A stretch of 64,000 nucleotides of DNA from Profundibacter amoris (GTDB lineage Bacteria > Pseudomonadota > Alphaproteobacteria > Rhodobacterales > Rhodobacteraceae): contig NZ_CP032125.1 in assembly GCF_003544895.1 (NCBI RefSeq), positions 2,308,001 through 2,372,000 of the forward strand. Direction: 5' to 3'. The notes beneath the pieces were generated by a model. It made no database searches. It was not told the origin of the DNA and was given only the letters and a program-made list of their open reading frames with translations. A program made the translations under genes and the position numbers. Each line of letters opens with the position of its first letter. Within the stretch, counting starts at the first letter, position 1. Positions 48,515 through 59,359 of the stretch are shown here, in pieces.

Positions 48515-49066
48515 CTAGCCCTGCAATCGGGCAATCACCTGATCCGTCGGCAATAACGCGCCATAACCGGCGGCCAATGCGGCCATAAATCCGGCATGAA
48601 CCTGCGCGGCAGGCACCGCTACCCCGTCAAATTCCAGATCGCGGGTGGCACAGGCATCATGGGCCACGGTGCAGCGATACCCCAGATCCGCCGCCGCGCG
48701 TGTGGTGGCATCAATGCAGAAATGGCTCATCGCGCCGATGATCACCAGATCGCTTATGCCCAGCGCCTGCAACCGGTCCTGTAAGTCCGTTTCGCGAAAG
48801 CTGTTGGGGAAATTTTTGGTGACCACCGGCTCATCCCCTTCGGGCAAAACCGTTTCATTAATTTCGGCCCCCTCGCTGCCCTGGGCGAAAAACGGCGCCG
48901 GTTCGCGCAAAATCTCGTGGCGGATGTGGATCACCGGCAATCCCTGCACCCGAAACGCCGCCAAAACCCGCGCCGCTTTTTCTGCTGCTGCATCTATCCC
49001 GACCAATGGAAATTTCCCGCCGTCAAAGTAATCATTCTGCAAATCCACAATCAACAAGGCCTGCAT
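48515..49066 (-). CDS. Isochorismatase-family cysteine hydrolase
   Basis: A 183-residue hydrolase. The catalytic triad is visible: Asp in LLIVDLQNDYF, Lys in VVTKNFPNSF and Cys in IIGAMSHFCIDATTRAA. Family members act on nicotinamide, N-carbamoyl compounds or isochorismate; the sequence does not fix which. It starts at 49066 after AAGGAGCG, 102 bp from the divergent GlxA-type regulator, a common partner of such genes. Confidence 0.9.
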   Translation of the reverse strand: MQALLIVDLQNDYFDGGKFPLVGIDAAAEKAARVLAAFRVQGLPVIHIRHEILREPAPFFAQGSEGAEINETVLPEGDEPVVTKNFPNSFRETDLQDRLQALGISDLVIIGAMSHFCIDATTRAAADLGYRCTVAHDACATRDLEFDGVAVPAAQVHAGFMAALAAGYGALLPTDQVIARLQG

Positions 49067-49168
49067 CTTTTCGCTCCTTTTCATATCAACCTGCCCCCAT
49101 GCTTGCCCTGCCTGATGATTCCCCGTTAGTGTCAAATCTGACATAAACCGCGCCATTTAGGACAACCC

Positions 49169-50065
49169 ATGCCCAACCTCGCCCTACTCGACTATCCCGG
49201 CGCATCAATCGCCGCCGTTGCGGGCTTGCAGGAAATGTTCATCTATACAGCAAGACTGCATCAACGTGACGGTCTGCCGGACATCACCCTGACCACCGGC
49301 CAGACTCTGAAAGCCACCCCCGACGCGGCGATCCTGCCCCCTGCCTTTGGCAATGACGCCTACCTGACCCCGCCGCAGCCCATTATCGACTGGCTGCGCG
49401 CCCTGCCCGACACCTGCCTGATCGCTTCCACCTGTGCCGGTGCCTTCTACCTTGGCGCGGCGGGCCTGCTGGACGGGCGCGAAGTCACCACCCACTGGGT
49501 GCTGGAACATGACCTGCAATCGCGATTTCCCAAAGCCAAAGTCGACACCGGCGAAATTCTGATCCGCGACGGGCGGATCATTACGGCTGGCGGGTTGCTG
49601 TCATGGATCGACCTTGCGCTGGAACTGATCGCGCATTTCTCAGGCCCCGCGATCATGCGCGAGGTCGGGCGTCACTTTGTCACCGACACGGGCCGACGCG
49701 ACCAGCGTCCCTACCGCGCCTTCAACCCGCCAATGAACCACGGCGACCACCAGATCGAACAGGCCCAATCCCTGATCGAACGCACCTTCGCCGCCCCGAT
49801 CCGCATTGCCGAACTGGCCAGAACCGTCGCGCTGACCGAACGCACCTTCCTGCGCCGTTTTGAGCGCGCCACCGGCTTAACGCCGCTGACCTATGTGCAG
49901 CACCTGCGCATCCAGTCCGCACAGCGCGCCCTTGAAAGCACCCCCGCCCCGATCGACCAGATCGCCTATTCCGTCGGCTATGAAAACGCCAATGCCTTTC
50001 GCAAACTGTTCAAACGCCACACCGGCCTGTCCCCGTCCCAGTATCGCCAACGCCTGAAACGCTGA
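49169..50065 (+). CDS. GlxA-type AraC-family regulator
   Basis: A 298-residue two-domain regulator. An N-terminal DJ-1/PfpI-like domain (residues 1-170, with TCLIASTCAGAFYLGAAGLLDGREVTTHW) is followed by a C-terminal AraC helix-turn-helix pair (IRIAELARTVALTERTFLRRFERATG and IDQIAYSVGYENANAFRKLFKRHTGLSPSQYRQRL). It is divergent from the cysteine hydrolase, which it may regulate. Ligand unknown. Confidence 0.92.
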   Translation: MPNLALLDYPGASIAAVAGLQEMFIYTARLHQRDGLPDITLTTGQTLKATPDAAILPPAFGNDAYLTPPQPIIDWLRALPDTCLIASTCAGAFYLGAAGLLDGREVTTHWVLEHDLQSRFPKAKVDTGEILIRDGRIITAGGLLSWIDLALELIAHFSGPAIMREVGRHFVTDTGRRDQRPYRAFNPPMNHGDHQIEQAQSLIERTFAAPIRIAELARTVALTERTFLRRFERATGLTPLTYVQHLRIQSAQRALESTPAPIDQIAYSVGYENANAFRKLFKRHTGLSPSQYRQRLKR

Positions 50066-50080
50066 TCCCTTACCGTTCCC

Positions 50081-50100
50081 AAATATCCGCGCCGCAGGCA
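50081..50100. repeat. Partial copy of the TGCCTGCGGCGC extragenic repeat
   Basis: On the minus strand this reads TGCCTGCGGCGC then GGATATTT, matching the core of the 29261 and 36802 copies. It lies just after the GlxA-type gene and is followed by a small GGCCCC/GGGGCC hairpin (about 50108-50123). Confidence 0.5.
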
Positions 50101-50251
50101 AACCCGAGGCCCCCTTGCGGGGCCGAGATATAAAGCGTTGCGCAGTAACTCCTTTGTGTTGACATCCCCGCCCATTAGCGCGAAACACACCCCGAACCAT
50201 ACCCGCAACCGGGCGCTTGGTAGGCGCCAAACCGACGAGGAGCGCCAGACC

Positions 50252-52198
50252 ATGGCCCAGATCCAACTCACCTTCCCCGATGGCAACAAACGCGAATTCG
50301 ACGCCGGTATCACGCCCGCCGAAATCGCCGCCGGTATTTCCAATTCGCTGCGCAAAAAGGCCATCTCGGCCACGGTGAACGGCCAGCACTGGGATTTGCA
50401 GTGGCCCATCAATGATGACGCCGAAATCGCCATCAACACCATGAAAGACGCAGAACCGGCGCTGGAACTGATCCGCCACGACTGCGCCCACATCATGGCC
50501 CGCGCGGTGCAGGAAATCTGGCCCGACACCAAAGTCACCATCGGCCCGGTGATCAAGGATGGCTGGTATTACGACTTTGACCGCGAAGAACCCTTCGTGC
50601 CCGAAGACCTTGCCCTGATCGAAAAGAAGATGAAGGAAATCATCAACAAACGCGACGAGGTGCGCACCGAAATCTGGGATCGCGACCGCGCGGTGCAGTT
50701 CTACAAAGACAATAACGAACCCTATAAGGTCGAGCTGATCGAGGCCATTCCGGGTGACGAACCTTTGCGCATGTACTGGCACGGCGACTGGCAGGACCTG
50801 TGCCGCGGCCCGCATTTGCAAAACACAGGGCAAGTGCCTGCTGACGCCTTCAAACTGATGTCGATCGCCGGTGCCTATTGGCGCGGTGATTCCGACCGCG
50901 CCATGTTGCAGCGGATTTACGGGATCGGCTTCCAGAACAAGAACGATCTGAAAAAGCACCTGCACATGCTGGAAGAGGCCGCCAAACGCGACCACCGCAA
51001 GCTGGGCCGCGAGATGGACCTGTTCCACATGCAGGAAGAGGCCCCGGGCCAGATTTTCTGGCACCCGAACGGCTGGCGTATCTACACCGAATTGCAGGAC
51101 TACATGCGCCGCCGCCAGAACGAAGCGGGCTATGTCGAGGTGAACACACCGCAAGTGGTGGATCGCAAACTGTGGGTGGCCTCGGGCCACTGGGAAAAAT
51201 ATCAGGAGCATATGTTCATCGTCGAGGTAGACGAGGAACACGCGCGGGAAAAATCGGTGAACGCGCTGAAACCGATGAACTGCCCCTGCCACGTTCAGAT
51301 CTTCAATCAGGGTCTGAAATCCTACCGCGACCTGCCGCTGCGCATGGCCGAATTCGGATCCTGCAACCGGTACGAGCCATCGGGCGCGCTACATGGCATC
51401 ATGCGGGTGCGCGGTTTCGTTCAGGATGACGCGCATATCTTCTGCACCGAAGCCCAGATCGAAGAAGAAACCAAACGCTTTATCGACTTCCTGTCGCTGA
51501 TCTACAAAGACCTCGGCTTTGAAGAATTCAGCGTCAAGTTTTCCGACCGCCCCGAAACCCGCGCCGGCTCGGACGAAGTCTGGGACAAGGCCGAAGCCGC
51601 CCTGATCGCCGCGACCGAAGCCGCCGGTTCCGAATACACCCTGAATCCGGGCGAAGGCGCGTTTTACGGCCCTAAACTGGAATTCGTGCTGACCGATGCG
51701 ATCGGCCGTGACTGGCAATGCGGCACCCTGCAAGTGGACTTCGTGCTGCCCGAACGTCTGGACGCCACCTATATCGGCGAGGACGGCGCCAAACACCGCC
51801 CCGTCATGCTGCACCGCGCCACGCTGGGCAGTTTCGAGCGCTTCATCGGCATCCTGATCGAAAGCTTTGCCGGCAAACTGCCCTTCTGGCTAGCCCCGCG
51901 TCAGGTTGTCGTGGCCTCGATCATATCGGATGCGGATGACTATGTGCATGAAGTCGTTGCCGCCCTTCAGGCCGCCGGTGTGCGTGCCGAGGCCGACATC
52001 CGCAATGAAAAGATCAACTACAAGGTCCGCGAACACAGCCTTGGCAAAGTGCCCGCCATTCTGGCCATCGGCATGCGCGAGGTCGAGGAACGCACGGTGT
52101 CCATCCGCCGCCTTGGCGAAAAACAAACCAAGGTGGACACATTGGACGAAGCCGTCGCCAGTCTGTCACAAGAGGCCAAGGCCCCCGATTTGGCATAG
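50252..52198 (+). CDS. thrS: Threonyl-tRNA synthetase
   Basis: A 648-residue class II synthetase. An N-terminal TGS domain ([19 protein letters not shown]) is followed by the SAD editing domain ([16 protein letters not shown]). The catalytic core has zinc-binding Cys in [10 protein letters not shown], motif 2 [28 protein letters not shown] and motif 3 [13 protein letters not shown]. The C-terminal anticodon-binding domain completes it. The start at 50252 follows GAGGAGCG. The upstream region has a TTGACA hexamer at 50159-50164 but no good -10 partner. Confidence 0.98.
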
Positions 52199-52215
52199 GC
52201 CCGAAACTGTAACAA

Positions 52216-52257
52216 TTCACCCTCCTGCGTTGTAACATTCCAGCGCAGGAGGGTGAA
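52216..52257. terminator. Strong hairpin after thrS
   Basis: A perfect 14-bp stem (52216-52229 and 52244-52257; arm TTCACCCTCCTGCG) with a 14-base loop lies 18 bp after the thrS stop. No T-run follows, but stem strength and position suggest a terminator that separates thrS from the peptide operon. Confidence 0.75.
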
Positions 52258-52405
52258 AACCGGCATTTTCCGCCCAAAACCCCTGACATTTCATAACGCA
52301 CCCGTGACACACGCCGATGTGAGTGGCCTGTGTGCCCCTTCTTTCGCTAGCCTTTCCCCATCGCCACCATGCGATCAAATGGAAACGTAACAAAGGAACT
52401 TCTAA

Positions 52406-52696
52406 ATGTCATACCACGTAAAATCCCTCGCTGTTGCCGGTGCTATTGCTGCTGCTCTGACCGCCCAGATGACCACACCCGCCGCCGCCGCCGCCAAGGA
52501 AAAATGCTATGGTGTTGCGCTGGCTGGCCAGAATGATTGCAAAGCAGGCGCTGGCACAACATGCGCCGGCACCTCGAAAGTCGACTATCAGGGCAACGCA
52601 TTCTCGCTGGTTCCCGCAGGCACATGCGCCTCGATCAAACTGCCCGAAGGCCGCATGGGTTCGCTCGAAGAACTGGACCGCGACATCCCGTCCTAA
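52406..52696 (+). CDS. bufA: DUF2282 secreted four-Cys peptide (BufA/bufferin precursor)
   Basis: A 96-residue precursor. A Sec signal peptide of about 28-30 residues (hydrophobic [13 protein letters not shown], cleavage near PAAAAA) is followed by a small mature peptide with four cysteines at 34, 45, 53 and 74. The DUF2282 pattern is [14 protein letters not shown], then [10 protein letters not shown] and VPAGTC. In the described bufferins some of these cysteines are oxidised by the adjacent MNIO enzyme into copper-binding thiooxazole groups. It is the first gene of an operon with DUF692, DUF2063 and DoxX genes. The AAAGGAACTT ribosome-binding site is strong. Confidence 0.9.
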
Positions 52697-52703
52697 ACCG
52701 ACC

Positions 52704-52741
52704 AAAGGCGCCTTTGCAGGACATGCGAAGGCGCCCTTTTT
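52704..52741 (+). terminator. Hairpin/attenuator between the peptide gene and its modification genes
   Basis: An AAAGGCGCCTT arm pairs with AAGGCGCCCTTT (one bulge) and is followed by a T-run (52736-52741). It lies 8 bp after the bufA stop. As a partial terminator it would give excess precursor over modification enzymes. Confidence 0.75.
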
Positions 52742-52777
52742 ACATCCGGAATTCCCAATTCAAGTCAGGGCCGCTTC

Positions 52778-53638
52778 ATGCTCGATACGCCAGGCACATC
52801 GCCCCCAATCCTGCCCAATGCCCCCGGTGTAGGTTATAAACCCCAACATTTCGCCCAGATCATGGAGAATCCAGCGCCGGTTGAATGGCTGGAAATCCAC
52901 GCCGAGAACTATATGGGTGACGGTGGCCGCCCGATAGCGCAATTGCGCCATCTGGCCGAACGGTTTCCTATTTCCGTGCATGGCGTTGGCCTGTCGATCG
53001 GCGGGGCCGACCCGCTGGACAATGATCACCTGAAACGTCTGAAACATCTTTGCGACTGGCTGAATCCGGCCAGTTTTTCCGAACATCTGGCTTGGTCCAC
53101 CCACGAAGGGACTTACCTGAACGATCTGATCGCCCTGCCCTATACCGAAGAAACCCTGACCCGCGTGGCCGATCATGTCGCGCAGGTGCAGGACGTGCTG
53201 GGCCGCAAAATGCTGCTGGAAAACCCCTCGTCCTATCTGGCCTTTGCCGAATCCACCTATTCCGAGACCGATTTTCTGGCCGAAGTGGTGGCGCGCACCG
53301 GCTGTGGCCTGCTGCTGGACATCAACAACGTCTTTATTTCTGCCACCAACCAGAAAACCGGTGCGATCGACTATATCGATGCCTTCCCGCTGGACCATGT
53401 CGGAGAATTTCACCTTGGCGGCCATGATCAGGATACCGATGATACCGGCGCGCCGCTGCTGATCGACAGCCACGGGCGCGAGGTGGCCGATCCAGTCTGG
53501 GCGCTGTTTGACTACACTCTGGGCAAAACCGGCGCGCGCCCTTCATTGATCGAATGGGACGCCAATGTGCCCGAATGGCCCGAGCTGGCCGCCGAGGCCG
53601 CCCGCGCGGCGAACATTCTGGAAAAGGCCCCCGCATGA
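52778..53638 (+). CDS. bufB: DUF692 multinuclear non-haem iron oxidase (MNIO, BufB-like)
   Basis: A 286-residue TIM-barrel protein of the DUF692/MNIO family. Candidate iron ligands are arranged as expected: Glu43 in EIHAENY, His68 in VHGVGLSIGG, Glu102/His103 in SEHLAW, Glu148 in LLENPSSY, Asp181-Asn184 in LDINNV, His216-Asp217 in LGGHDQD, Asp230/His232 in IDSHG, and Glu259-Asp261 in LIEWDAN. MNIO enzymes oxidise cysteines in ribosomally made peptides. With the DUF2282 gene 81 bp upstream this should be the peptide-modifying enzyme. The 4-bp overlap with the next gene shows coupling. Confidence 0.92.
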   Translation: MLDTPGTSPPILPNAPGVGYKPQHFAQIMENPAPVEWLEIHAENYMGDGGRPIAQLRHLAERFPISVHGVGLSIGGADPLDNDHLKRLKHLCDWLNPASFSEHLAWSTHEGTYLNDLIALPYTEETLTRVADHVAQVQDVLGRKMLLENPSSYLAFAESTYSETDFLAEVVARTGCGLLLDINNVFISATNQKTGAIDYIDAFPLDHVGEFHLGGHDQDTDDTGAPLLIDSHGREVADPVWALFDYTLGKTGARPSLIEWDANVPEWPELAAEAARAANILEKAPA

Positions 53639-54387
53639 GCCGCCAATCCGATTTCGCACAAGCCATCCTGAACCCGGATCAGCCCAACCCCGAAGGGCTG
53701 CGCGATCCTGAAGGTGCCCCCGCCGGTAAACGCTTTTCCGTCTACCGCAACAACGTCGCCGTCAGCCTGTCCGAAGCGCTCGAAGTCACATTCCCCGTCA
53801 TCCGCCAACTTGTCGGTGACGAATTCTTCAAGGCGATGGCGGGCGTGTTCCTGCGCCAGCATCAACCAAACAGCCCCGTGCTGATGTTTTACGGCACCGA
53901 AATGCCGGTATTTCTGCAAGGGTTTGAACCCGTCACCCACCTTGGCTATCTGCCGGATGTCGCGCGGATCGAACTGGCCCTGTGCCGCAGTTACCACGCC
54001 GCCGACACCCCGCCGCTGGACCCGACGGCCCTGCAAACCATCGACCCCGACGACCTGCTGAAAACCCGCCTGCATCTGGCCCCTCCGGTGCATCTGATCC
54101 GCTCGAAATGGCCCGCTGGTTCGATTTTCCATGCCAACAGTTCGGGGGACACCCCGCCGACGGAACTGCACCCCGAAGAGATATTGATCACCCGCCCCGA
54201 ATTCGACCCGCAAGTTACCGTACTGCCCGCCGGCGCAGGGGCCTTCATCGCTGCCCTGATTGAGAACGCACCATTGGGTGAGGCCCTGAAACAAGCCACA
54301 ATCACCTCGGGCGATTTTGATCTGACCCAAACACTCGGGCTGCTGCTAAGCACCTGTGCAATAACAAAAATATCCAAAGGGACATAA
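53635..54387 (+). CDS. bufC: DUF2063 partner protein (BufC-like)
   Basis: A 250-residue soluble protein. The N-terminal DUF2063 domain shows KRFSVYRNNVAVSLSEALEVTFPVIRQLVGDEFF and FLRQHQPNSPVLMFYGTEMPVFLQGF. The C-terminal half is alpha/beta. In other MNIO pathways the DUF2063 partner binds the precursor and presents it to the enzyme (the RRE-like role of TglI or HvfC types); that role is inferred here. Its ATG overlaps the MNIO stop. Confidence 0.9.
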   Translation: MSRQSDFAQAILNPDQPNPEGLRDPEGAPAGKRFSVYRNNVAVSLSEALEVTFPVIRQLVGDEFFKAMAGVFLRQHQPNSPVLMFYGTEMPVFLQGFEPVTHLGYLPDVARIELALCRSYHAADTPPLDPTALQTIDPDDLLKTRLHLAPPVHLIRSKWPAGSIFHANSSGDTPPTELHPEEILITRPEFDPQVTVLPAGAGAFIAALIENAPLGEALKQATITSGDFDLTQTLGLLLSTCAITKISKGT

Positions 54388-54389
54388 CA

Positions 54390-54929
54390 ATGAACGCGCT
54401 GATTTCTCTGCATAACTCGTTTTTCCGAAAACTCGAATCCACGCTTGGACCGTGGCTCTTGCCCACTCTGGCGCGCTTCACCTTTGCCGCCACCCTGTTG
54501 ATCTATTTCTGGAACTCCGCCAGCCTGAAAATCGGCGACGGGCTGTTTGGTATCTTTGACATCAGCAACGCCTATGGCCAGATCTACCCCCGCGCCTTCG
54601 AGGCCGCAGGTTACGACAGCGACGCCATGTCCACCTTCCAGTGGCTTGTCACGCTCACGGGCACTTGGGCCGAATTCATCCTACCACTGCTGATCGTAAT
54701 CGGCCTGCTTACCCGCCTCGCGGCCCTTGGCATGATCGGCTTCACCATCCTGCAAAGCCTGACCGACATCTACGGCCATATGGCCACCGAATACGGCACA
54801 TGGTTCGATCGCGCACCGGATGGCACCATCATGGATCAACGCCTGTTCTGGATCACCATCCTGATGATCCTCGTGATCCGCGGGGCCGGTCCGCTCTCGC
54901 TCGACCGGTTACTGGGACGAGTGACCTGA
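54390..54929 (+). CDS. DoxX-family membrane protein of the bufferin operon
   Basis: A 179-residue protein with four to five hydrophobic segments of the DoxX type (LPTLARFTFAATLLIYFWNSA; WAEFILPLLIVIGLLTRLAALGMIGFTILQS). It starts 3 bp after the DUF2063 stop. DoxX genes often end DUF2282/DUF692 operons; the protein may handle electron transfer, quinones or export for the peptide pathway, but no experiment-based role is known to me. It is followed by a short extragenic repeat. Confidence 0.88.
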   Translation: MNALISLHNSFFRKLESTLGPWLLPTLARFTFAATLLIYFWNSASLKIGDGLFGIFDISNAYGQIYPRAFEAAGYDSDAMSTFQWLVTLTGTWAEFILPLLIVIGLLTRLAALGMIGFTILQSLTDIYGHMATEYGTWFDRAPDGTIMDQRLFWITILMILVIRGAGPLSLDRLLGRVT

Positions 54930-54931
54930 CC

Positions 54932-54965
54932 CTTCTTCTTGCCCGAAATACCTCCGCCGGAGGCA
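54932..54965. repeat. Divergent copy of the CTTCTTCTTG / CGCCG extragenic repeat
   Basis: CTTCTTCTTG is followed by AAATACCTCCGCCGGAGGCA. This is the reverse orientation and a variant of the 29261/36802 repeats, with its own CCTCCG/CGGAGG hairpin. It lies after the DoxX gene. Confidence 0.5.
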
Positions 54966-55016
54966 TCGCGCCCGGACTGGGCGCGCGGGGCGGCGCCGTC
55001 AGGCGGCGCAACCGCT

Positions 55017-55391
55017 TCAGTGTTCGTCCGGATTCACCGCCGCAATCGCCAACACTCCGCCCAGCGCGCACATGGCAATCGGAAACATGGTGAACGCATT
55101 AAAATGGAACGCGTAATACATCCCCGCCGCCGAGGCCAGCATCAGCCCGCCGCCAATCCGCGCCCTTGAGCGCGCCATTGCGCCGCCCGCAATCGCCAGC
55201 AAAGGGGCAAACAATGCCATGAACCGGATCAATCCGACATTATCAACCTGCTCCAGAACCCCTTGTTCCAGCACTTCCGGCGCCTTTTCACCAATAATAT
55301 CAACCGCCTGGGTATAGGCATAACTAAAGAACCCGACGATCATACCTATAATCCCGCCGATCACCCCTAACATTAACGCCGCGTTACGCAT
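55017..55391 (-). CDS. Small four-span membrane protein
   Basis: A 124-residue protein with about four hydrophobic segments, beginning MRNAALMLGVIGGIIGMIVGFFSYAY. The next segments are FMALFAPLLAIAGGAMA, IGGGLMLASAAGMYYAF and FPIAMCALGGVLAIAA. It resembles DUF4064-type membrane proteins, though I am not certain. Its start overlaps the 3' end of the ArsC-like gene by 8 bp, so it is co-transcribed with it. Confidence 0.78.
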   Translation of the reverse strand: MRNAALMLGVIGGIIGMIVGFFSYAYTQAVDIIGEKAPEVLEQGVLEQVDNVGLIRFMALFAPLLAIAGGAMARSRARIGGGLMLASAAGMYYAFHFNAFTMFPIAMCALGGVLAIAAVNPDEH

Positions 55392-55722
55392 CTTTCACTC
55401 CCCAATGCTTTTGCTCATCCTTACCCCAGCCAAGGGTCAGCAATCCACCCTCTTCCAGAATAACCGGCCGCTTCATCAGGGTCGGGTGTTTGATCATCAA
55501 TGCCACCGCCCCCTCTTTGCGCTCCTCTTCACTCAGCTTGCGCCAGGTGGTCGAGCGCCGGTTCAGCAAATCCTGCCCGAACACCAGATACAACCGCTCC
55601 AGCTCCTCGGGGCTGATCATGTCCTTGCGCACGTCCACCAGCTCCACCTCATGCCCCGCCGCCTTCAGCGCCTTAAACGCCCGGCGCGAGGTGTCACAGT
55701 TCTTTAACCCGTATAATTTCAT
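55384..55722 (-). CDS. ArsC/Spx-like thioredoxin-fold protein
   Basis: A 112-residue protein. MKLYGLKNCDTSRRAFKALKAAGHEVELVDVRKD shows the ArsC/Spx/YffB fold with a single Cys in NCDT. Arg residues of a real arsenate reductase site are only partly evident, so a YffB-like reductase of unknown substrate is as likely as arsenate reductase. The start at 55722 follows GCGAGGA. First of a two-gene leftward unit. Confidence 0.88.
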   Translation of the reverse strand: MKLYGLKNCDTSRRAFKALKAAGHEVELVDVRKDMISPEELERLYLVFGQDLLNRRSTTWRKLSEEERKEGAVALMIKHPTLMKRPVILEEGGLLTLGWGKDEQKHWGVKDA

Positions 55723-55939
55723 CTTATCCTCGCAAATATTTCCCATCACTATAAGCGGAGCGCTGCCGAGTGCGAGCGCATTTTTCTTGCCTTTTGTCAA
55801 AATCCCCCTACGATTTTACCCGTGACAACAGGTTTCTTGACGACGCCACCCGCTCGGGTGCGGCTGAAAGACTGGAGAACTGGCTGCACGACCTGTCCGC
55901 AATTTCGCGGGTGGGGGGCTAAATTGACGGAGAAGATGG

Positions 55940-56149
55940 ATGGCGACAGGCATCGTAAAATGGTTCAACACAACAAAAGGGTTTGGTTTTATCGCGCCCG
56001 ATGACGGCGGAAATGACGTATTTGTGCATATTTCCGCAGTCGAAGCGGCAGGGATGACAGGCCTCGCCGACAACCAGAAGATCAGCTATGAAATGATCGA
56101 GGGGCGCGACGGGCGTTCCAGCGCGGGCGAACTGAAACTGCTCGACTAG
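55940..56149 (+). CDS. Cold-shock protein, CspA family (copy 1)
   Basis: A 69-residue OB-fold protein with RNP1 KGFGFI and RNP2 VFVHI. It begins [20 protein letters not shown]. Such proteins bind single-stranded RNA and DNA and act as RNA chaperones. The second copy begins 252 bp downstream and shares most of the first 50 residues, which indicates local duplication. An ACGGAGAAG site precedes the start. Confidence 0.95.
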   Translation: MATGIVKWFNTTKGFGFIAPDDGGNDVFVHISAVEAAGMTGLADNQKISYEMIEGRDGRSSAGELKLLD

Positions 56150-56173
56150 AAACAACAGCGCGAACGAAAACTT

Positions 56174-56199
56174 GGGTGGCCTGCCGTTGCGGGCCACCC
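56174..56199 (+). terminator. Hairpin after cold-shock gene 1
   Basis: An 8-bp stem, GGGTGGCC / GGCCACCC, with a 10-base loop lies 24 bp after the stop. It is followed by TTGG rather than a T-run. Confidence 0.55.
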
Positions 56200-56349
56200 T
56201 TGGTGGTGCGCAAAAAACCGCCACAATCAATTAATTGAAAAGAAATGCTTGTATCTTGGGATGAATACCCCCATGTGTCCCCTGTGACGACAGACTTTTT
56301 CTACCCGCTACCTTATCCAAGAGCAGCCGGACGAAGACTAAGAGACTGC

Positions 56350-56382
56350 AACACCAAGCCGCCGCATAACGCGGGCGGTGTT
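56350..56382 (+). other. 5'-leader hairpin of cold-shock gene 2
   Basis: A GC-rich imperfect hairpin (AACACC...GCGGGCGGTGTT) ends in TTTT 5 bp before the AAGGAG ribosome-binding site. It lies in a 252-bp leader without a gene. It may be an RNA thermosensor, an attenuator or a terminator-like element. Confidence 0.45.
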
Positions 56383-56401
56383 TTGATAAGGAGATACGGG
56401 T

Positions 56402-56611
56402 ATGGCTACTGGCACCGTAAAATGGTTTAACACTACTAAAGGCTTCGGCTTCATCGCACCTGACGAAGGCGGCAAAGACGTGTTTGTACACATCTCGGCT
56501 GTCGAGCGCGCAGGTCTGACCGGCCTTGCTGACAACCAGAAAGTCGAATTCGAGCTGGAAGAGGGCCGTGACGGCCGTCAGTCCGCCGGTGCGATTTCGC
56601 TGGTTGACTAA
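56402..56611 (+). CDS. Cold-shock protein, CspA family (copy 2)
   Basis: A 69-residue paralogue of the upstream copy: [35 protein letters not shown], with RNP1 and RNP2 intact. It has a strong AAGGAG ribosome-binding site and its own long leader, so it can be expressed separately. It ends with a classical terminator. The two copies differ mainly in the C-terminal 25 residues. Confidence 0.96.
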
Positions 56612-56617
56612 GCTTTC

Positions 56618-56638
56618 GGCGGGGTAACCCCGCCCTAC
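56618..56638. repeat. Short extragenic palindrome, GTAGGGCGGGGTT family (reverse)
   Basis: The reverse complement matches the element at 7665-7685. GGCGGGG/CCCCGCC forms a hairpin. It lies between the cold-shock stop and its terminator. Confidence 0.55.
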
Positions 56639-56644
56639 AGTTTG

Positions 56645-56680
56645 AAACACCCCGTTGCCATTGGCAGCGGGGTGTTTTCG
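56645..56680 (+). terminator. Intrinsic terminator after cold-shock gene 2
   Basis: A 16-bp stem with one G-U pair (arms 56645-56660 and 56662-56677, CACCCCGTTGCCA / TGGCAGCGGGGTG) is followed by TTTTCGTTT. Confidence 0.9.
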
Positions 56681-56727
56681 TTTGGAAAGGTGTGTATTTA
56701 CGACACGCCTGAACCTTGCAATCATCG

Positions 56728-57030
56728 CTATTTGCGAAGCTCGTGCTCCAGCGCGTGCGACAGTTTGGTCGCAGCACCACGTATTGCGGCAGGTATGTCT
56801 GCGGCAAAATTCTTAACACCGACCGGCTTTCTGCCTTTGGGGTGCGCTTCCATAGAGCAACGCTTGTCATCTGCCCCGCCCTTATGCGAATTCTCGTCAG
56901 ATATCCAGATTTCCACCCGTGTCAGCTTGTCCGACTTACCCTTCAATGCCCGCCCGAGAACATCTTCCGCGAATTCCTGGGCGCTTTCAAACCCGTGGAC
57001 GGCATCGTGATTGTGCAGGATTACTTGCAT
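56728..57030 (-). CDS. HPF/RaiA-like ribosome-associated protein
   Basis: A 100-residue protein beginning MQVILHNHDAVHGFESAQEFAEDVLGRALKGKSDKLTRVEIWISDENSHKGG. This resembles the HPF/RaiA (sigma-54 modulation) fold, which binds ribosomes and slows translation in stress. The ending KLSHALEHELRK is consistent. The start at 57030 has AAGGGGA seven bases upstream; a second ATG two codons before it is too close to the site. It lies after thyX on the same strand and converges with the cold-shock gene. Confidence 0.82.
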   Translation of the reverse strand: MQVILHNHDAVHGFESAQEFAEDVLGRALKGKSDKLTRVEIWISDENSHKGGADDKRCSMEAHPKGRKPVGVKNFAADIPAAIRGAATKLSHALEHELRK

Positions 57031-57101
57031 GACCATTTCCCCTTTTTCTATTGTTAACATATAGATAAGGGGTATTATCGGGCTTTCAAGGGCTGAACAG
57101 A

Positions 57102-58010
57102 CTAACCCTCTAATTCTGCCTGAAATTCGCGCCATTCCCCGGCACTCATTCCGGAATTTTCCTGCGTCACCTCTTCGCCCTTCAGCATCCGGCGGATGCA
57201 ATCCATCGCCTTGCCCGACAGGTTGGCGCCGCCCATGCGGTAATCCTCGAAGGCGCCATAAGCAGCAGGCACCCAATCGGCGACCACCTTACAGATCGCA
57301 TCGGCATAGACGCGGATTTCGTATTGGGCGTGACTGTCGGCGCGCAGGCGCAGGAAATGGAACAGGTTGTGCAGGTCCACCTTCCAGTACCATTGGGTAT
57401 AGATGTTCATCGGCAGGTTCATCCGCGCCAGTTCACGCGCCAGCCCCGCCTGCCCCTCGTCCGAGATCATCGCCTCGTAATTGTCATAGGCGCGGTTGCT
57501 GTCGGATTTCAAAATTTCCAGCACGCGCACGGCCTCTTCCCCTTCCAGCGCCACACCGCGGCCCTGATTGTTGACCACCGATTGCGCCGCCAACTGGTCC
57601 GGCGCGGGGATATAGAATTCGCGGTCCAGTATCGAATAGCGGGCAGAATATTCGTTCACATTGGCAGTGCGGTGGCGGATCCATTGCCGTGCAACGAACA
57701 CCGGCAGTTTCACATGCAGCTTGATTTCGCACATCTCGAACGGGGTGCTGTGCCAGTGGCGCATCAGATACCGGATCAGGCCTTCATCATTCTGCACCGA
57801 TTTCGTGCCCTTGCCATAAGACACCCGCGCTGCCTGACAAATCGCGGCGTCATCCCCCATATAGTCGATAACGCGGATAAACCCGTGGTCCAGCACTTCG
57901 TGCGCCTTGTACAAATGCGCTTCCATCCCTTCGCTGACCGCGCGCAATGTCGGGCGCGGGTTGGCGCGTTGGGCTTCAATTTCGGCGATCTGTTCAGGCG
58001 TCAGCGGCAT
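57102..58010 (-). CDS. thyX: ThyX, FAD-dependent thymidylate synthase
   Basis: A 302-residue flavoenzyme with the ThyX motif [21 protein letters not shown] (RHR-x7-S). Also present are [19 protein letters not shown] and the C-terminal [19 protein letters not shown]. It methylates dUMP to dTMP with methylenetetrahydrofolate and FAD and leaves tetrahydrofolate. The start at 58010 gives [10 protein letters not shown]. The 3' end is 71 bp before the HPF-like gene. Confidence 0.96.
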
Positions 58011-58797: not shown

Positions 58798-59298
58798 TTA
58801 GTAAATATACCTGATCTGATCGCTCCAGTAGCGTTCCATCCGGCGCAGGGATGTGTTGATCGCCTCAATCCCGTCATGCCCCAGCACCCCCTTGGCCTCG
58901 AGCCCGTCTGCATGGCGCGCAAACAGCCCTGCCACAACGTCGCGAATATGGCGCCCTTTTTCCGTCAGGCGCACCCGAACCGACCGGCGGTCGATTTCAC
59001 ACCGCTGGTGGTGCATATATTCCATTTCAACCAGTTTCTTCAGGTTATAGGACACGTTCGAGCCCTGATAATAACCGCGCGATTTCAATTCGCCCGCTGT
59101 CACCTCGTTGTCGCCGATATTGAACAGCAACAGCGCCTGAACCGCGTTGATTTCCAACACGCCGACCCGTTCGAATTCATCCTTGATCACGTCCAGCAAC
59201 AGGCGGTGTAATCGTTCCACCATCGCAAGGGTTTCCAGATAGCCCGAAATAAATCCCTGCTGGGACTGGGTCATCACGCTTGTGTGCATACTCATCAT
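58798..59298 (-). CDS. MarR-family regulator (LdtR-like)
   Basis: A 166-residue winged-helix regulator. EINAVQALLLFNIGDNEVTAGELKSRGYYQGSNVSYNLKKLVEMEYMHHQRCEIDRRSVRVRLTEKG matches the MarR fold and resembles LdtR of alphaproteobacteria, which controls L,D-transpeptidase and envelope genes; that resemblance is from memory. The start at 59298 follows CGGAGAG. The stop codon abuts MITE-like copy 1, and copy 2 lies 61 bp upstream of the start, so the insertion may affect its promoter. Confidence 0.87.
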   Translation of the reverse strand: MMSMHTSVMTQSQQGFISGYLETLAMVERLHRLLLDVIKDEFERVGVLEINAVQALLLFNIGDNEVTAGELKSRGYYQGSNVSYNLKKLVEMEYMHHQRCEIDRRSVRVRLTEKGRHIRDVVAGLFARHADGLEAKGVLGHDGIEAINTSLRRMERYWSDQIRYIY

Positions 59299-59359
59299 GT
59301 CTCTCCGCCGAAAACTGCCTGGCGCCGACACTGACCAATAAACACAAACATTCCGTTAA

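Follow-up and report, generated by a model that had tools for sequence, protein, structure and literature searches.

We found that the window (the whole stretch of 64,000 nucleotides analysed here, C1:2308001-2372000 of a complete 3.56 Mb chromosome) carries a four-gene Buf1 bufferin operon, the product of which is very probably a periplasmic peptide that binds copper. Taken as a whole, the data are best explained by an operon of this type in which a hairpin behind the first gene would set dosage and a tandem dyad in front of it probably controls transcription; we give this reading a probability of roughly 0.85. The four-gene set is ordinary, widespread and of a known kind, since it is the core of published Buf1 clusters, while its putatively dyad-controlled form is apparently an undescribed regulatory variant of the bufferin operon.

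Gene layout, protein families and known relatives

The genes bufA, bufB, bufC and doxX form a single tight run on one strand (52406-54929; Table 1), and the genome contains one MNIO gene and one DUF2282 gene. An earlier note, made from the letters of this DNA, had listed DUF2282, DUF692 MNIO, DUF2063 and DoxX genes in the same direction, and its coordinates and order were correct. Its range of 3-81 bp for the gaps and overlaps was right in the 81 bp between bufA and bufB and wrong at the lower end: bufC starts with an ATG at 53635 that overlaps the bufB stop by 4 bp, and bufC and doxX are 2 bp apart.

Table 1. Features of the bufferin locus (positions in the window; scores are Pfam bits against the cut-off unless another source is named)
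Feature	Position	Strand	Description
thrS	50252..52198	+	Frequent upstream neighbour; synteny marker, outside the system
Putative operator	52283..52324	+	Core tandem dyad at 52296-52322
Proposed -10 element, TAGCCT	52348..52353	+	Inferred from its place relative to the operator in aligned loci
bufA	52406..52696	+	DUF2282 (Buf1) precursor, 96 aa; 88.8 against 22.4
Terminator-like hairpin with T tail	52707..52735	+	Between bufA and bufB; z -4.63
bufB	52778..53638	+	DUF692/MNIO peptide-modifying enzyme, 286 aa; MbnB_TglH_ChrH (PF05114), 347.3 against 25
bufC	53635..54387	+	DUF2063 partner (PME type 1), 250 aa; PF09836, 91.9 against 27.2
doxX	54390..54929	+	Divergent DoxX membrane protein, 179 aa, no Cys; PF07681, 25.9 against 23.6 (marginal)
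LdtR-like MarR regulator	58798..59331	-	NCBIfam LdtR, 233.8 bits, just under the cut-off of 250

Several other genes of the neighbourhood should be mentioned. An ArsC/Spx-like gene lies downstream of doxX on the opposite strand (55384-55800) and was a neighbour in 18 of 21 loci, as often as thrS. At 48515-50065 there is a divergent pair, made up of an ORF named by eye as isochorismatase-like and of an AraC regulator that carries a DJ-1/PfpI domain, and two closely similar short cold-shock-like genes, also named by eye, stand in tandem at 55940-56149 and 56402-56611. A PADLOC scan gave no matches.

The assignments made by eye in the earlier note hold in profile searches: BufA, BufB and BufC all exceeded the Pfam cut-offs for DUF2282, DUF692 and DUF2063, and the DoxX partner did so marginally. 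BufB also scored 379 bits with the NCBIfam model MNIO_BufB, over the curated cut-off of 310. Its closest named relatives, the nearest at 94% identity, came from Marinosulfonomonas and from further genomes of the Rhodobacteraceae, including many MAGs; a roseobacter-type alphaproteobacterium therefore fits the marine-type host that had been guessed.

Conservation was studied in a first family sample of 61 genomes, including the window's own, 40 of which had an MNIO gene; the best 30 of these 40 loci were analysed. A larger sample of 159 family genomes, the first 61 among them, had an MNIO gene in 112. The genes bufA, bufB and bufC were present in the same order in all 30 loci, the window's own included, and doxX in 28 of them, so the grouping is not due to chance.

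All four cysteines of BufA (C34, C45, C53 and C74) were invariant in the 30 loci and belong to a total of 21 invariant residues. The four-Cys part of the precursor proposed in the earlier note is thus confirmed, while its putative Sec-type signal peptide was read by eye, from a basic start, a hydrophobic core and an Ala-rich cleavage region. BufA ends in a C-terminal tail, of which 14 residues were noted, that may serve in recognition or export. A tail of this kind (window 52640-52693), described by a 12-residue sequence, occurs in most BufA proteins of the family and is absent from several whose genes have sigma-F-like promoters. Two loci (L011, 750-1485, and L090, 9403-10033) contain two tandem bufA genes before a single bufB, with a hairpin after the second copy.

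The candidate iron ligands of BufB mentioned in the earlier note were likewise all found. H68, H103, E148, D181, N183, N184, H212, D230 and H232, assigned by alignment with 3bww and with the residues described in the accessible text of PMC13419390 rather than by coordinates, were invariant in 30 of 30 loci; the candidate ligands stayed invariant in another set, of 20 sequences with the window's included, down to 41% identity. The predicted model of BufB (mean pLDDT 87) had DUF692/MNIO entries as its nine best PDB matches, 3bww being the first. In two genomes the MNIO gene is seemingly interrupted, as two overlapping pieces in G149 (C1:525482-526265) and by one internal TAA in G100 (C45:4536-5327).

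The profile of BufC gave no match among solved structures at E 1. The predicted DoxX model is mostly helical (mean pLDDT 82), and a fold search with it gave no PDB match up to an E value of 0.001. Six DoxX residues (D126, G129, H130, D149, Q150 and R151) were conserved in at least 90% of 21 sequences, and the stretch that holds them is largely absent from the shorter Alloalcanivorax homologue. The role of DoxX had been called little studied, which agrees with the accessible part of PMC13419390, where HvfX is termed uncharacterised.

Genes for a precursor, an MNIO, a DUF2063 protein and DoxX make up the core of bufferin clusters (PMC12452194, as far as accessible). An example of this core is known from Pseudomonas, where Pep1 lists the same four families by description (PMC8719888), and the Caulobacter Buf1 operon CC3254-CC3257 has the same families in the same order, when compared by family and not by alignment. 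Related clusters, compared by description, are the gig operons of Cupriavidus metallidurans and Legionella, which are metal-induced or predicted (PMC8224329, PMC5413113). The earlier view of both host and system as little studied thus overestimated the novelty: the core is published, Caulobacter is a studied host, and the MNIO gene is present in most genomes of the larger sample.

Bufferins are grouped among the captophorins (PMC13097082). The oxazolin and fontiphorin captophorins (HvfABC, FonABC) likewise use an MNIO and a DUF2063 partner to form 5-thiooxazoles on a Cys-rich peptide, as described in PMC13097082 and PMC13419390, but their precursors have EGKCG repeats, unlike BufA here. An oxazolin system was rejected, as the equivalog cut-offs were missed for HvfB (240.6 bits against 360), HvfC (46 against 142) and HvfX (27.5 against 80). 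A Buf2 bufferin was rejected too, the BufA2 precursor model giving 19.5 bits against 60. The methanobactin enzymes MbnB/MbnC and the TglH/TglI pair have the MNIO fold in common with BufB, but differ in precursors and partners, and the MbnB model gave BufB 63.2 bits against 325.

Hairpin between bufA and bufB

Directly 3' of bufA there is a stem of 12 pairs followed by a T tail. To describe it across the family, we calculated z-scores of folding stability for the 60 nt from the bufA stop in the 30 loci. The mean z at the bufA/bufB junction was -3.00, with 24 of 30 loci below -2. At the bufB/bufC and bufC/doxX junctions the means were -0.21 and +0.24, each with a single locus of the 30 below -2. 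Two coding controls gave -0.44 and -0.06 (4/30 and 3/30 below -2). A repeat in 38 named loci (40 minus two without a bufA match) gave a mean of -2.66, with 22 of 38 below -2; it should be mentioned that the two sets share at least two genomes (L121 is the same as G003, and L138 agrees in length with a contig of G039).

The stability and the position of the hairpin are conserved between loci, while its sequence differs. A stem of at least seven pairs was present in 29 of 30 loci and a strong T run in only six, so that simple termination cannot be general. Partial termination and protection of the 3' end are both possible at this site. The hairpin may set the dosage of peptide over enzyme: as judged from the computed structure, it would leave the peptide message in excess of the enzyme messages.

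The alternative in which RNA processing leaves the hairpin behind to stabilise the 3' end, and it is not a partial terminator, has in our opinion only slightly less than an even chance of being true. The rarity of strong T runs and the conservation of position without sequence both point this way, whereas the window's own hairpin does carry a T tail. In the window as a whole, terminator-like sites were fewer than in shuffled sequences (2 versus 3.9).

Tandem dyad upstream of bufA

According to the accessible texts, the Caulobacter operon is induced by copper, a sigF mutant is copper-sensitive (PMC8224329), and the operon is controlled by sigma-F with NrsF as negative regulator (PMC3511200). 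Caulobacter has sigF/nrsF and GTAACC-N16-CGAA promoters. Control of this type was rejected here on two of its markers, NrsF and the promoter: the genome has no NrsF match, and no GTAAC-N16-CGAA-type promoter lies within 300 nt upstream of bufA. The region contains instead a tandem dyad, ACGN4YGTGAN3ACGN4YGTGA (Table 1). No sigma-70 consensus promoter was revealed in the window scan. A link of the gig promoter to RpoS is described for another host, Legionella (PMC5413113, in part accessible).

Seven of the 30 loci had a sigma-F-like promoter and came from genomes with NrsF; L008, which matched a loose sigma-F pattern (ending CGTT) in a genome without NrsF, was excluded from the seven. Among the other 23 loci, 16 matched the dyad at 14 or more of 16 positions within 300 nt upstream of bufA and seven fell below 14, while none of the seven sigma-F loci had a dyad of this quality. 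Over all positions on both strands of the loci, a score of at least 14 was reached at 24 of 226,098. In the 38 named loci, 16 of which are thrS-linked, a dyad of at least 14 was present in 13, all thrS-linked, a sigma-F-like site in 12, and both in none; here L124 was masked, L127 had no upstream sequence, and the sigma-F pattern was slightly stricter than for the 30 loci. A Ruegeria and a Phaeobacter locus matched at 16 of 16 positions.

Since the pattern was read off the same 30 loci, a search of the 159 genomes is the fairer test. The perfect dyad was found in 32 of them, once in each; the reversed pattern, used as control, gave one match. Twenty-six of the 32 lay immediately upstream of the MNIO operon and in its orientation (eight of these come from the first 61 genomes), and one more, in G155, lies upstream of the operon on the opposite strand. 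The remaining five (G112, G134, G124, G071 and G118) are elsewhere. Positions were taken from coordinates for all and checked by tblastn for 30 of the 32, G123 and G118 being placed by coordinates alone. With a tolerance of one mismatch, 18 genomes gave 25 matches, 11 of them away from buf.

A profile of the operator, built from 30 sites, was searched in 23 genomes, 19 chosen as operator carriers and four without an operator at buf. In all 19 carriers the bufA promoter was the best match (27.8-40.1 bits); 17 of these were in the training set, and the other two scored 29.9 and 34.5 bits. Away from bufA, the best match (21.6 bits) falls within an ORF of 275 aa, and another (18.0 bits) overlaps long ORFs. 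In the four genomes lacking an operator at buf, the best scores were 18.2, 15.6, 15.1 and 13.8 bits. As 150 first-look candidates per genome were scored, weaker operator targets may have been missed.

Judging from the sequence, the most likely role of the dyad is that of a protein-binding site beside a weak promoter. We consider it unlikely that the dyad is no protein operator at all, being instead part of a transcribed leader (an RNA switch) or simply inherited at the thrS locus from a common ancestor. Its half-sites are indeed mutually complementary, and most matches occur at the thrS-linked locus. Against this, half-site positions outside the search pattern are conserved as well: in 24 aligned perfect sites, position -2 is T in all 24, -1 is G in 21, +14 is C in 22 and +28 is T in 21, with another conserved element, TSAC, at -12, while the flanks have only about 0.2 bit per column. 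The dyad also precedes bufA in L117 and L118, where the 20 kb taken contained no thrS match and bufA lies about 9 kb from their start, and Rfam revealed no family in 49000-58000.

As a protein operator, the dyad can be set against NrsF over the larger sample. NrsF was present in 18 of the 112 MNIO genomes (below the cut-off in G129 and weak in G118), and none of these had the operator in place. Among the 94 MNIO genomes without NrsF, 26 had it in place (Fisher p 0.012, uncorrected for relatedness) and 68 had no perfect dyad at the operon. The BufA of G010 shows 79% identity; in that genome thrS and bufA are separated by NrsF, and the promoter resembles the sigma-F type. This arrangement suggests that control was swapped at one locus, in either direction. 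The dyad seems to take the place of the regulator that relatives are known to use, and transcription is probably controlled through it, upstream of the promoter, instead of by sigma-F/NrsF. Further, we tentatively propose, at somewhat worse than even odds, that in roseobacter-type bufferin operons sigma-F/NrsF was replaced by another metal-responsive regulator reading a tandem dyad that is nearly restricted to this operon.

Neither operator nor hairpin is described in the accessible DUF2282 literature searched, which mostly does not extend to subscription journals. The words "promoter", "operator" and "hairpin" are absent from the main text of PMC12452194.

Candidate regulators and the copper-buffering role

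ORF families present within about 10 kb in at least four of 21 loci were collected as neighbours, and 26 were left after overlapped ORFs were dropped. Pfam was run on representatives of ten of the 26 and recognised regulator domains in three. One of these is MarR/LdtR-like and was present 5-9 kb downstream in 9 of 21 loci; the other two, an XRE-type and an ArsR-HTH/AHSA1 gene, were neighbours in six and four loci. None of these three families adjoins buf. No regulator was seen by eye among the ORFs of L117 and L118, two loci without a nearby thrS; in the genome of L117 (G092), bufB is followed, about 8 kb downstream, by the MarR gene.

It is improbable that the dyad is read by the LdtR-like MarR protein, acting as a general regulator of the family and not a dedicated one. 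In its favour, all nine loci with the MarR-type gene nearby carry the operator, zinc binds Liberibacter LdtR (PMC5892913, accessible part), and a perfect operator (L094, 1501-1527) of G112, a genome with no MNIO, precedes a YkuD L,D-transpeptidase gene, the kind of target that Liberibacter LdtR has. On the other hand, an LdtR-like gene was found in all 31 genomes tested, including eight sigma-F and 11 MNIO-less ones, and so does not track the operator, and the LdtR sites described in PMC3999280 and PMC5481520, as far as accessible, are AT-rich, unlike the dyad. For both reasons it is a weak candidate. This gene is highly conserved across the family.

As to the products, a secreted copper-buffering peptide had been proposed in the earlier note. 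By homology, this proposal is supported: family assignment, residue conservation, fold and the copper induction of the Caulobacter homologue together make a periplasmic copper-buffering peptide the best inference. In Buf1 the central cysteines are modified and the first and last form a disulphide (PMC12452194, in part accessible). By analogy with the family, the multi-iron MNIO BufB and its partner BufC would oxidise C45 and C53 of BufA to thiooxazoles in the cytoplasm; the precursor would be exported by Sec, a C34-C74 disulphide would form, and the mature peptide would sequester excess periplasmic copper, with DoxX as a probable accessory membrane protein.

It is very improbable that a modified BufA serves mainly another metal, gold, or sulphur or oxidative stress (DoxX pointing to sulphur/redox), since, although chromate and cadmium elicit a response of the sigma-F genes in Caulobacter (PMC3511200), the promoter of the Legionella homologue answers gold besides copper (PMC5413113) and other metals and stresses have been suggested as roles (PMC12452194), loss of sigF impairs the growth of Caulobacter in copper while its chromate and cadmium sensitivity is reported as similar (PMC8224329), all four sources being accessible in part.

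For a copper-buffering operon of this kind, the bufA hairpin offers a mechanism, open to testing, by which peptide could be produced in excess of enzyme, and the nearly operon-specific operator is a direct bait for its regulator in marine roseobacters.
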